NCBI GenBank assembly: GCA_016871535.1 | Contig: VHCZ01000022.1 | Coordinates: forward strand, 1-43,156 | DNA: 43,156 nucleotides | Reading direction: 5' to 3' | Origin: Verrucomicrobiota bacterium | GTDB taxonomy: Bacteria; Verrucomicrobiota; Verrucomicrobiia; Limisphaerales; SIBE01 | In this document: piece by piece, positions 17,339 to 21,648 of the stretch | Layout of the letters: every line of letters starts with the position of its first letter | Numbering within the stretch: position 1 is the stretch's first letter | The notes under the pieces: model-generated | Database searches by the model: none | What the model was told of the DNA's origin: nothing | What the model saw: the letters and a program-made list of their open reading frames with translations, nothing else | Made by a program: the position numbers and the translations under genes

Positions 17339-17464
17339 GGGCGACCTGTGCCTTGCCTGGCTAACTCCACCGCGCGCTAAAACAGGGTTCCGGGAATTCA
17401 GGGACGAACGGAAGGCCGTGGAATGCGTCCCTACGCTTCGTTGCGGCTCGGCCGCGATGGGCTT

Positions 17465-17687
17465 ACTGATCAGACCGTGGGATAGAATACACTTTGCCAG
17501 GAGGGATTTTGGCCAGCGACGAAGCGGCTGGCCAAAAGACCCCTGGCCCTGCGGGTTGCGCCGCATTTGGGATCTGGCTTCGTTGCTCCTCAGTCGAAGA
17601 TCCACCAGGGATATTCTCCTTCGTCGCGCCTCGCCGGAGCCCAAATGCGACGCAACAAAGTGTATTTTATCCCACGGTCTGATCAGT
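17465..17687. mobile_element. MITE-like element with 32-bp terminal inverted repeats
   Basis: Arms at 17465-17496 and 17656-17687 are reverse complements at 31 of 32 positions (left arm begins ACTGATCAGACCGTGGGATA). Nested inside are a perfect 10-bp hairpin TTTTGGCCAG/CTGGCCAAAA (17507-17537) and a pair of arms around GCATTTGGG/CCCAAATGC (17557-17571 and 17640-17654). It is 223 bp with no coding capacity, filling most of the 17339-17682 gap; the first 125 bp of that gap show nothing else. The right arm supplies the stop codon of the minus-strand glycosyltransferase gene. A half copy of the arm lies at 20973 and an interior relative at 25-108. No flanking target duplication was established. 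Confidence 0.7.
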
Positions 17688-19416
17688 AGGAAGGAGGACG
17701 CAGCGCCTTCTCGAGCAACGCCAGTTCGTGAGAGGCGATGGCCGCGCCAAAGGAATCGCCCAGGGCATTCAGCAGTCCAACCAGTCTCCTTCGTACCGCG
17801 AGATCCCAGGGCTGACGTTCCAGGGCTTCTTGATAGGCCGCGCACGCCAGCGCTGTCTGGCCGATTTGCTCCAGCGCTCGCCCCAGCCCTGCATAGGCAT
17901 ATTCCAGTTCACGGCGTGCCGCGATCGCACGCGCGTACAAGTCTTTGGCCTCCTCCGCTCGACCGAGACCGAGCAAGGCGTCGCCCAGCCGCCGGGCGCA
18001 TTGCCAGCGCAGCAAAACCGTCAATTCGTAGGACAGCCGCACGGGATCGGACGCGCAGGTTGAGACGAGCCTCTCCCACTCGACCCTGAAAATATTGAAA
18101 TCCGTTTTGTTCTCCTGGGAGGAATCCACGAAGAAGCAACAGCCTTCCCGAAAAACCATCTGCTCCGGATTGGAAGAGAGTAAGTCGAGGGCTCTGCGGA
18201 GCGCCTCCACGCCGGTTTCGCGCAGGCCGAATTCGAGTCGAGCAAAGCCAAGATTCGCCCAGCCCAACAAATGACCGGGGCAAAGCTCGACCAGTTTCAG
18301 CCAGTGGCGCTCGGCATAGGCGTTGAAGACGCGCGTTCGCTCCGCTGAATCCGGGATTTTCGCGGCGGCGATGGCTTCGGCCACGGCCACCGCATTCCAA
18401 TGCTCCGGCTCGGTCGGGTCGGCTTTGACCGCCTTGACGAGTTCGTCGTGTCCCAGATGAACTTTTGGGCCGGCGCACGCGAGCCAACGTCCGTAAAGAT
18501 AGAATCGCTCCGCCTCTTTGAGATGCGGCCAACGCCGCGGGCGCCCGCGAAGTTTGCCCCAATCCAACGATTCTAGATGAGTGACCAAGCTCGCCACGTG
18601 CGCTTTGAATGTCTCCGATTGAATGCGCCTCCAGCCTGCTTCGGCGATTCGCGCGCGCAACGGTTCATTCTCGAGGTAATGATGCAGGAGTTCCTCGATG
18701 TTGTCCTCCCGATACAACACGCACTCGCGGCCCTCGATCAAAAAATCGCGGACCTCCAGGTTGCTCGCTTCCATGAAAAGCAGCGCGCCGCATGCGGGCG
18801 TTTCGTAGCCGCGCAAATTCATTTCGCGGCGCACGGAGTAATTCACCACGATCCGACTTTGCCTCAGCAGTTCCGCGTACTCGTTTCCCCAAATGCCGGT
18901 GCGGATGGCGACGCGATACCGGTCGCCCAGCTTTCCGATTCGAGCCAGAATTTGCGCGCGCGCGCGATGGATGTCGTGATTATGATTGCCTACAAAGGCT
19001 ATGTCGCAGAGGTGCGTGCGATCGGGCACGCGGTAAAAAACCTCCGGATAAAGGCCGTATCCAGGCCAGTAGCTCGCGTGGGAGATCCCGATCGAGCGCA
19101 GTCGCTCCAGTCCGAGTTTGTCCGTGACGAGGTAATCACAGCGGTCGAGCGCCTCGCGGAACGCGCTGAAGTAAAGGCTCCAATCGTTCAGAATCGCGAC
19201 CAGCGGCGCCGGACAATCGTGATGGATCGGCCAGGGGTTCGAGTCCGGATATCGCCACACCACTGCGTCCGGGTAGAAGCCTCCCGGCAAGCGCTGGAAG
19301 ATGTCATTCCAGGTCTCCCCAATCTGATACGGCAGACCGCTTTCGCCGAACTCGACGACTTGGTGCGGCGGATCGATGGGAGCATAAATCGGCAGAGGTC
19401 CCCAAAGAAGTTTCAC
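17683..19416 (-). CDS. Glycosyltransferase (CgeB-like) fused to TPR repeats
   Basis: A 577-residue cytoplasmic protein. Residues about 1-300 resemble the CgeB/DUF3880-type GT-B glycosyltransferases: an N-terminal Rossmann-like half with VAILNDWSLYFSAFREALDRCDYLVTDK, then DIAFVGNHNHDIHRARAQIL, and the donor-side segment VNYSVRREMNLRGYETPACGALLFMEAS ... EGRECVLYREDNIEELLHHYLEN. Residues about 330-570 contain helical TPR-like repeats, including AKDLYARAIAARRELEYAYAGLGRALEQIGQTALACAAYQEALERQP. The donor and acceptor sugars are not predictable. It is divergent from pncB with about 100 bp between starts. The stop codon lies inside the right arm of the MITE-like element, so the C-terminus may have been reset by the insertion. 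Confidence 0.8.
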   Translation of the reverse strand: MKLLWGPLPIYAPIDPPHQVVEFGESGLPYQIGETWNDIFQRLPGGFYPDAVVWRYPDSNPWPIHHDCPAPLVAILNDWSLYFSAFREALDRCDYLVTDKLGLERLRSIGISHASYWPGYGLYPEVFYRVPDRTHLCDIAFVGNHNHDIHRARAQILARIGKLGDRYRVAIRTGIWGNEYAELLRQSRIVVNYSVRREMNLRGYETPACGALLFMEASNLEVRDFLIEGRECVLYREDNIEELLHHYLENEPLRARIAEAGWRRIQSETFKAHVASLVTHLESLDWGKLRGRPRRWPHLKEAERFYLYGRWLACAGPKVHLGHDELVKAVKADPTEPEHWNAVAVAEAIAAAKIPDSAERTRVFNAYAERHWLKLVELCPGHLLGWANLGFARLEFGLRETGVEALRRALDLLSSNPEQMVFREGCCFFVDSSQENKTDFNIFRVEWERLVSTCASDPVRLSYELTVLLRWQCARRLGDALLGLGRAEEAKDLYARAIAARRELEYAYAGLGRALEQIGQTALACAAYQEALERQPWDLAVRRRLVGLLNALGDSFGAAIASHELALLEKALRPPSY

Positions 19417-19520
19417 TGGCGCTACCGACTACCGGCGAGCCGGGGCAATGTCAACGCCGCGCTCCATTCGAATTTCGGATTTCAAATTCACCCCGGCTGA
19501 TTTTAGAGTCCTCGCGATCT

Positions 19521-20993
19521 ATGTCCGTTCGCCATCCGCCTTCCGCCCTTCTGACCGATCTGTATCAACTGACCATGGCGTATGCCTATTGGAAATCGGG
19601 CACGCACACGAAGGAAGCAGTCTTTCATCTGTTCTTCCGGAAGAATCCCTTCCAGTCCGGGTTCAGCATCAACTGCGGATTGCAGGACGTGGTCGATTAC
19701 CTGAGGGCTTTCCGCTTCGACCGGAGCGACCTGGATTATCTGGCCGGTTTGTCCGGGAGCGATGGGAAGCCCTTGTTCGATGCCGGTTTTCTGCAGTACC
19801 TGAACGAGCTTCGCCTGAGCGTGGACCTGGATGGGATTCCCGAAGGCACGATCGTTTTTCCGAACGAGCCGCTCTTGCGGATTCAGGGGCCGATCATCGA
19901 AGGCCAGCTTCTGGAAACTGCGTTGCTGAACATCGTCAACTTCCAAACCTTGATCGCCACGAAAGCCGCGCGCATCTGTGTCGCCACCAAAGGCGATCCG
20001 GTGCTGGAGTTCGGACTGCGCCGCGCCCAGGGCATCGATGGCGCGCTCGCGGCGAGCCGCGCGGCTTACATCGGCGGCTGTGCGGCGACGTCGAACGTGT
20101 TGGCCGGAAGACTTTTCGGCATCCCGGTCCGGGGGACGCACGCGCACAGTTGGGTGATGTCCTTCGACGACGAGTTGGAAGCGTTTCAAGCGTATGCGCG
20201 GGCCATGCCGAACAACTGCATCTTTCTCGTGGACACCTACGACACGCTGGCCGGCGTGCGAAAGGCAATTGAGGCCGGCCAGTGGTTGCGCAGTGAAGGC
20301 CACGAAATGATCGGCATCCGGCTCGATTCGGGCGACCTGGCGTATCTGAGTATCGAAGCGAGAAGCATGCTCGATGAGGCGGGCTTCCCGAAGGCGGCGA
20401 TTGTCGCGAGCAACGATCTGGACGAGCAAACCATCGTCAGCTTGCGTGATCAAGGCGCGGCCATCAACGTCTGGGGCGTCGGCACGCGGCTCGTGACTGG
20501 TTACGATCAACCGGCCATGGGCGGCGTCTATAAACTCGCCGCCATCCGTCAACCCGGCGGTTCATGGAAGTACAAAGTCAAATTGTCCGAGCAAGCCGTC
20601 AAAGTATCCAATCCAGGCATCCAGCAAGTGCGCCGATTTCAGCAAGACGGCGAATTCCTGGGCGACGTGATTTATGATGTTGAGCTGGGCCTGAGTGACG
20701 GCTCCGTGATCATCGATCCGTTGGACGCGACGCGGCGCAAGCGAATTCCGTCCAGCGCGACCGCGCACGACCTGCTCGTGCCAATCTTTAGGAAGGGGAA
20801 GGAAGTGTGCGAGCTGCCGCCGATTCAGGCAGTCCGCGAACGAGCGCAACAGCAACTCGCGGGCTTCCACTCCGGAATCAAGCGCTTCCTGAATCCGCAC
20901 GAGTATCCCGTGGGCCTCGAACCGCGCTTGCTGGATTTGCGGACCAGGTTGATTCTCGAAGCCCGCGGCCATACTGACCAGACCGTGGGATAG
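19521..20993 (+). CDS. pncB: Nicotinate phosphoribosyltransferase
   Basis: Converts nicotinate and PRPP to nicotinate mononucleotide in NAD salvage, in the cytoplasm. The 490-residue length fits the longer bacterial form. Recognisable segments are LLTDLYQLTMAYAYWKSG at the N-terminus, FRKNPFQSGFSINCGLQDV, the active-site region LEFGLRRAQGIDGALAASRAAYIGGCAATSNVLAG, GTHAHSWVMSF, DTYDTLAGVRKAIEAG and IGIRLDSGDLAYLS. It is followed after 34 bp by the nicotinamidase gene, giving a nicotinamide-to-nicotinate mononucleotide pair. The last six residues (TDQTVG) and stop are encoded by a copy of the MITE arm, so the native C-terminus has probably been replaced. The catalytic core is intact. Confidence 0.93.
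   Translation: MSVRHPPSALLTDLYQLTMAYAYWKSGTHTKEAVFHLFFRKNPFQSGFSINCGLQDVVDYLRAFRFDRSDLDYLAGLSGSDGKPLFDAGFLQYLNELRLSVDLDGIPEGTIVFPNEPLLRIQGPIIEGQLLETALLNIVNFQTLIATKAARICVATKGDPVLEFGLRRAQGIDGALAASRAAYIGGCAATSNVLAGRLFGIPVRGTHAHSWVMSFDDELEAFQAYARAMPNNCIFLVDTYDTLAGVRKAIEAGQWLRSEGHEMIGIRLDSGDLAYLSIEARSMLDEAGFPKAAIVASNDLDEQTIVSLRDQGAAINVWGVGTRLVTGYDQPAMGGVYKLAAIRQPGGSWKYKVKLSEQAVKVSNPGIQQVRRFQQDGEFLGDVIYDVELGLSDGSVIIDPLDATRRKRIPSSATAHDLLVPIFRKGKEVCELPPIQAVRERAQQQLAGFHSGIKRFLNPHEYPVGLEPRLLDLRTRLILEARGHTDQTVG
20973..20993. repeat. Solo MITE-arm copy overlapping the pncB stop codon
   Basis: The 21 bp beginning ACTGACCAGACCGTGGGATA match the left arm of the element at 17465 at 20 of 21 positions, and similarity weakens beyond 20993. 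The TAG at 20991-20993 inside the repeat is the stop of the nicotinate phosphoribosyltransferase gene. Confidence 0.7.
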
Positions 20994-21027
20994 GATGTAG
21001 TCTGTTGCTGGCGGTTCCCAGTAAATC

Positions 21028-21648
21028 ATGAAAACGCTCATTCTCGTGGACATCCAAAACGATTTTGTTCCAGGCGGCGCCTTGCCTGTGCCGGAGGGCG
21101 CCGCCATCGTGCCGCTGGTGAATCGCCTCCAGGAGCACTTCGATCTGATCGTCGCCACTCAAGACTGGCACCCGCCTGATCACGGGAGCTTCGCCGCCAA
21201 TCATCCCGGACGGAAACCCGGCGAGGTCGTTGACTTGCACGGTCTGCCTCAAATCCTGTGGCCAGTCCATTGCGTGCAGAACACGCGCGGCGCGGAGTTC
21301 GTTCCGGGATTGAATGCGGGCCGCGCAGCCAAAATATTCGTCAAGGGCACGGACCCTCGAATCGACAGTTACAGCGGTTTTTTTGACAATGGCCATCGCA
21401 AAGCCACGGGGCTGGGTGATTATTTGAAGCAACGCGGCGCCAGCGAAGCTTATGTCGCCGGCCTGGCCACAGACTACTGTGTGAAATTCACCGCGCTCGA
21501 CGCTCAACAACTTGGTTTCAAGACTTCCTTGATCGAAGACGCCTGCCGTGGGGTGAATCTCAAACCAGAGGATGTCGCCCGCGCCGTTGCGGCAATGAAA
21601 CAGGCGGGGGTGAGAATCGTAAACAGCCGCCACATTTTGAATCCTTGA
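21028..21648 (+). CDS. pncA: Nicotinamidase (pyrazinamidase family)
   Basis: Hydrolyses nicotinamide to nicotinate and ammonia, feeding the phosphoribosyltransferase encoded just upstream. The 206-residue isochorismatase-fold protein has the full catalytic triad D8 (VDIQNDF), K106 (FVKGTDP) and C151 (ATDYCVKFT). The metal site is D46, H48 (QDWHP) and H81 (WPVHCVQ). A cis-peptide-type GLATDYCV segment precedes the nucleophile. Length and motif order match E. coli PncA. The start ATG lies 34 bp after the pncB stop. A cloverleaf-like palindromic element follows before the Nudix gene, so transcription of the third gene may be partly separated. Confidence 0.95.
   Translation: MKTLILVDIQNDFVPGGALPVPEGAAIVPLVNRLQEHFDLIVATQDWHPPDHGSFAANHPGRKPGEVVDLHGLPQILWPVHCVQNTRGAEFVPGLNAGRAAKIFVKGTDPRIDSYSGFFDNGHRKATGLGDYLKQRGASEAYVAGLATDYCVKFTALDAQQLGFKTSLIEDACRGVNLKPEDVARAVAAMKQAGVRIVNSRHILNP

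Follow-up and report, generated by a model that had tools for sequence, protein, structure and literature searches.

The 43,156-nucleotide window analysed here (contig VHCZ01000022.1 of a Verrucomicrobiota bacterium, assembly GCA_016871535.1; contig C22 of our genome G000, a 6.67-Mb draft in 460 contigs) contains two short repeat elements which overlap the stop codons of a glycosyltransferase gene and of pncB. These are very probably non-autonomous miniature inverted-repeat transposable elements (MITEs) of the IS630 type that insert at TA dinucleotides, the overlap with stop codons being a by-product. Such overlap would follow because TA targets lie within TAA and TAG, because selection removes insertions from genes, and because stop codons occur in two of the three frames read inwards from the element ends.

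The complete element, a family-A copy as defined below, spans 17464-17688 and measures 225 bp including both TAs. Its 33-bp terminal inverted repeats match at 32 of 33 positions and have a TA at each outer end. The left repeat, TACTGATCAGACCGTGGGATAGAATACACTTTG, lies at 17464-17496 on the plus strand, its first TA being one copy of the target duplication, and the right repeat lies at 17656-17688 on the minus strand. The first-pass annotation, which described a 223-bp element with 32-bp repeats matching at 31 of 32 positions, is therefore upheld and slightly refined. Between the repeats two hairpins are predicted from the fold, at 17503-17542 (shortened in this copy) and at 17555-17655, which together make up a two-hairpin core; the 225-nt element as a whole folds at -136 kcal/mol. 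The repeat core is found three times in the window and not at all in 100 shuffles. The genome-wide search proposed earlier gave 134 matches at up to 3 mismatches, and 0 for the reversed pattern. Short, present in high copy, without coding capacity and bounded by terminal inverted repeats, the elements have the features of a MITE family, as had been suggested.

The 134 matches form two main groups, family A with ends TACTGATCAGACCGTGGGATA.. and a typical full length of about 270 bp, and family B with ends TACTGTGCAG.. and ..CCAAGCAGTA and a length of 212 bp. Some elements carry one A-like and one B-type end, which suggests that the ends recombine. Among 77 complete G000 elements the lengths are 212 bp (44/77), 189 bp and 270 bp. 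Matches to the general end motif TACTGNNNNGNCCGYGGGAT number 177 in G000 (79+98). Of 58 genomes searched, 10 contain it, one of them being G000 itself; G010, which belongs to the same order, has 93 arms. A search for the narrower TACTGA form of the end across 320 genomes of the order found it in 7. The loci fetched from G000 hold 190 arms at 0-1 mismatch. No description of these verrucomicrobial MITEs was found in our searches of open-licence papers, and the family, which is large, is apparently undescribed. Minimal elements of 44 bp (L092:3013-3056) and 40 bp (G010, C51:710-749) also exist, which are hardly more than two joined ends.

Insertion at TA is evident from the family as a whole. A TA stands directly before 51 of 52 arms, and the flanks favour T-TA-A, with T before the TA in 62% and A after it in 73% of cases (n=77). 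In the genome G041 a MITE of the same superfamily is nested in a transposase gene, and its removal with one TA left in place reopens the reading frame with the motif NPDEFVWSYMKNN. The same operation restores the ends of pncB and of the glycosyltransferase gene, as described below, so that the target-site duplication which the first-pass annotation had asked for is found.

The G041 transposase, represented by the part on one side of the insert, matches the NCBIfam model transpos_IS630 with 217 bits (cut-off 100) and contains Pfam DDE_3 and HTH domains. The ends of this insertion sequence (IS), TACTGCCTAGTCCGTGGTATAGGCTACACTTTG, are identical to the window repeat at 26/33 and 23/33 positions. 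An IS in the same-genus genome G002 has matching ends on both sides (TACTGATCAGTCCGTTGGATAGACTACAC.. at 28/33, the other end at 26/33), as does one in G044 (24/33). When 20 shuffled repeats were compared with the same 123 kb their best matches reached 18-23/33, the true repeat scoring 33/33 because the loci tested include the window itself. Furthermore, the MITEs of G041 and G044 show the variant TACTGCC, as does the IS of the respective genome. The partner transposase is thus present in G041, G044 and G002, and the earlier suggestion of a transposase with the same terminal repeats is borne out by complete IS630-family elements in relatives. The window elements would most likely have been moved in trans by such a related transposase of the IS630 family, which in other genomes of the order is flanked by these ends.

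Strong hairpins and a mostly intergenic location might also be expected of structural RNA elements, or of palindromes of the REP/BIME type that a RAYT (Y1) transposase mobilises, readings which we consider extremely improbable. The REP/RAYT system uses a Y1 transposase and makes no target duplication, whereas the present elements duplicate TA, have terminal repeats of 33 bp and share their ends with a DDE-type IS630 element; no search for RAYT genes themselves was made. As to a structural RNA, a scan of the window against Rfam at the gathering threshold gave no family for the element, the single match being a tRNA.

The consequences for the two genes can be read from the reconstructed empty sites. 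The glycosyltransferase gene (17683-19416, minus strand; with TPR repeats, Pfam Glyco_trans_1_2) ends, as first noted, within the right arm of the complete element, which carries its TGA at 17683-17685. Removal of the element with one TA kept changes the end from ...RPPSY-TGA to ...RPPS-TAA, and the element therefore sits in the TA of the gene's own TAA stop. Since all family-A ends read TA-CTGA, insertion at this point would have added one tyrosine followed by a new TGA. The Tyr-TGA ending is seen again at the native stops of genes at five other loci (L090, L253, L259, L262 and L265), all of them Pfam-matched. The C-terminus reads ...KALRPPSY in the window, compared with ...KALGE in G002 and ...KAVTPIEMRS in G006.

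The second element, TACTGACCAGACCGTGGGATAGG...TTCCCAGTA, is a 52-bp remnant at 20972-21023 (plus strand) between pncB (nicotinate phosphoribosyltransferase, 19521-20993, plus strand) and a pncA-type nicotinamidase gene (21028-21648, plus strand), and it supplies the pncB stop TAG at 20991-20993. With 20972-21023 removed and one TA kept, pncB ends ...ARGHKS-stop, with a TGA that would overlap the pncA start codon as ATGA. Since this restored end is close to the ...ARGRKS-stop of the same-genus orthologue in G002, we read 20972-21023 as probably a decayed, TA-bounded element of 52 bp whose right end has decayed. The earlier placing of the pncB stop inside a repeat copy therefore stands. The description of that copy as a solo arm was rejected, as removal of the TA-bounded 52-bp element restores both the C-terminus and the ATGA overlap. 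Insertion would have disrupted the final three codons of pncB and been followed by decay, with the element end giving the TAG after TDQTVG.

Orthologues of pncB end after ARG with RKS (G002), MK (G003), VKK (G009) or FKP (G019), two others having 4-5 residues there, and G026 ends with EV after AR. The window protein ends ARG-HTDQTVG, its last six residues (TDQTVG, after H) being element-derived. The change is small, from a reconstructed KS to TDQTVG, and lies beyond the last conserved residue. The altered C-termini predicted for both genes are thus real though slight, the orthologue tails being different in each case. Judged from sequence, both changes lie beyond the conserved parts of the proteins, and they are presumably neutral. 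Only the final residues changed in either gene because the element ends carry stop codons.

Several observations weigh against our reading of the two elements as IS630-type MITEs. The pncB remnant has a heavily degraded right end, and hence its 52-bp extent was deduced from the C-terminus that is restored and from the overlap ATGA. The G002 pncB has no arm, but the sequence downstream of it differs and so it offers no direct empty site. For neither window locus did a relative provide a true empty site, and both sites were reconstructed instead. A partner is usually, though not by strict definition, expected in the same genome, and a search of G000 with the G041 transposase gave 0 matches, an absence which is weak evidence because G000 is a 460-contig draft. 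The sole DDE_3 protein of G000, a distant one on contig C148, was considered as the partner; its flanks, compared by eye, look different, and a search with the G041 transposase failed to match it. With no match and a single distant DDE_3 protein, the G000 partner would therefore have been lost or left unassembled.

We then compared the positions of the elements with those of genes. Empty sites were reconstructed for 77 complete elements of G000 (from 120 fetched loci and the window) and for 32 of G010 (40 loci), genes were called with a simple codon-usage caller, and every TA dinucleotide in these sequences served as a control. The decayed pncB copy was excluded from the 77, and unmated single exact arms (42 in G000, 10 in G010) were also left out. 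The elements avoid gene interiors: in G000, 8/77 lie within a gene and further in than its last 12 nt, in comparison with 5565/7920 control TAs in genes. At permissive sites, defined as non-coding or extreme-3' TA sites, 10/69 G000 elements fall within 15 nt of a stop as against 319/2557 controls (12.5%; p=0.58), and the corresponding values for G010 are 5/30 and 87/650 (p=0.59). The first-pass annotation had proposed that gene 3' ends are targeted, and this tabulation of distance to stop does not support it.

At a wider distance of 60 nt G000 does show a mild excess near stops (25/69 versus 612/2557; odds ratio 1.81, p=0.023), and in G010 the 60 nt around starts appear to be avoided (3/30 versus 170/650, p=0.053). 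Both would be expected of a transposon that targets gene 3' ends or stops, for example by recognising a terminator hairpin or a target that resembles a stop codon. Nevertheless we regard such targeting as very unlikely, since neither genome shows an excess within 15 nt, the 60-nt excess is not significant in G010 (9/30 versus 145/650, p=0.37), starts are correspondingly depleted, which is what selection against damaged promoters would produce, and the gaps between convergent genes hold only 10/77 elements.

A second possibility is that selection kept the copies which rebuild a stop, so that TACTGA-ended families accumulate in stop codons. Elements lying exactly in the TA of a stop codon number 4/69 in G000 (flank-weighted expectation 6.5%) and 4/30 in G010 (expectation 6.2%). 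A split by end type, made after the data had been seen, places 6/40 TACTGA-ended copies in a TAA or TAG stop where about 6.3% is expected (p=0.038, uncorrected and post hoc), compared with 2/49 for other ends and 0/10 for mixed ends (together 2/59; Fisher p=0.058). Genes that read into a TACTGA arm do so in the immediate TAC-TGA frame in 9/13 cases (p=0.009 versus one third), and a family-B copy in a stop codon (L218:556-767) has TAG where the end normally reads TAC, which re-closes the frame. Set against this, the numbers are small, TA sites of stop codons favour the TAC-TGA frame by themselves, G000 alone does not exceed its expectation, and none of 8 further mated TACTGA elements in G085 and G002 lies in a stop codon. 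Selection of this kind, the other suggestion made at first, is consequently left with a weak post hoc signal which the G000 total does not share, and we hold it to be doubtful.

The structure of the ends accounts for the outcome in the genes that are hit. A gene that enters a family-A end is closed at once as TAC-TGA, with one added tyrosine, or after six codons at ..TAG, the third frame being open. Eight further genes, seven struck in the stop codon and one truncated near its end, all match Pfam at E<0.001, with the gene at L218 near the curated cut-off.

We compared these elements with known systems. The closest mechanistic parallel, by analogy, is RUP of Streptococcus pneumoniae, which is mobilised by IS630-Spn1 (PMC2229807). 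RUP likewise is short, non-coding and intergenic, uses a TA target, has ends matching an IS630-family transposon, contains stop codons in its frames and is found inserted in transposase genes (PMC2229807). The nested G041 copy (L150:1501-1604) similarly lies inside the transposase gene of the very IS that shares its ends, as RUP does in IS elements. RUP differs in phylum and sequence and in its length of 107 bp, compared with 212-270 bp and strong inner hairpins in the verrucomicrobial elements, and the window's own genome has no detected partner IS. BOX repeats of S. pneumoniae show the same phenomenon of a repeat-encoded stop at the gene 3' end: of 58 coding sequences overlapped by a BOX, 36 meet it at their extreme 3' end, where the repeat supplies the stop codon, and comparison with orthologues offers no strong sign that these genes are truncated (PMC3049150). 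BOX, in contrast, is built of modules (boxA/B/C), and the IS that its ends resemble is a different one, ISSpn2. RU-1/ERIC-type repeats of enterobacteria are fused to gene 3' ends, where they replace the stop beyond the conserved domain (ECA3499; PMC2759123); RU-1 is open and adds about 35 residues in that gene, whereas in two of three frames a gene that runs into a family-A end is stopped after 1-6 codons. Submariner MITEs of Pandoravirus, a eukaryotic host system, were tied to their Tc1/mariner partner by about 83% terminal-repeat identity (PMC4495683), and they share the TA duplication with our elements, for which the MITE-IS identity of 28/33 amounts to 85%. The text of a 2024 review of prokaryotic MITEs (PMC10969869) does not contain 'stop codon', 'IS630' or 'Verrucomicrob'. 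Repeat-encoded stops at gene ends are hence a known kind of event, met here in a new transposon family.

Collectively, these findings link a large verrucomicrobial MITE family to a specific IS630 transposase and offer a mechanical reason for stops that appear to be encoded by the element, namely a duplicated TA in TAA or TAG which the element end continues with CTGA. They also call for caution in annotation, as C-terminal tails such as ..Y-stop and ..TDQTVG-stop should not be taken for biology.

The two-hairpin core may matter more than the stops at gene ends. Family A shares this core with other G000 families whose ends are unrelated (L336-L395), comprising at least three end sets with TA or TNA targets. 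Family C has ends GAGC[CG]TGTC[CT]GAAAATT, 40 near-full-length matches at 86-100%, a CTNAG target and identical 3-bp TNA-type flanks in 26/31 scored copies. Families D and D' have further distinct ends; those of D' read GTGGTCC.., and identical TNA flanks were seen in 8/10 scored copies, 13 of the 23 loci given being without two recognisable ends. In an alignment of eight elements, two per family, 61 of 90 consensus pairs include at least one case in which both bases have changed and pairing is retained. The stems thus differ between families yet stay paired, and it seems that the fold and not the sequence has been kept. Inverted repeats may be kept perfect by DNA processes or by selection on an RNA, and therefore what is conserved is a fold, from which a function does not follow. 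Tentatively, and with somewhat less than even confidence, we suggest that the core is a module of its own carried by at least two unrelated transposition systems, in which the folded core may aid propagation, serve the cell or reflect hairpin-templated repair. If true, it would be an unusual folded passenger that uses several transposition systems.

The window itself begins with such a relative. Positions 1-148 hold part of a palindromic D'-family element (GTGGTCC.., TNA duplication), which is truncated where the contig starts. The element interior which had been reported to recur at 25-108 is indeed a related palindrome, and its assignment to family A was rejected, as 1-127 is 87% identical to the D core compared with 70-75% to the element at 17464-17688. 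The TNA-type end TNAGAGCSTGTCYGAAAA is represented in G000 by about 296 arms, and many G000 contigs begin or end near an arm of this type, as if the assembly broke there.

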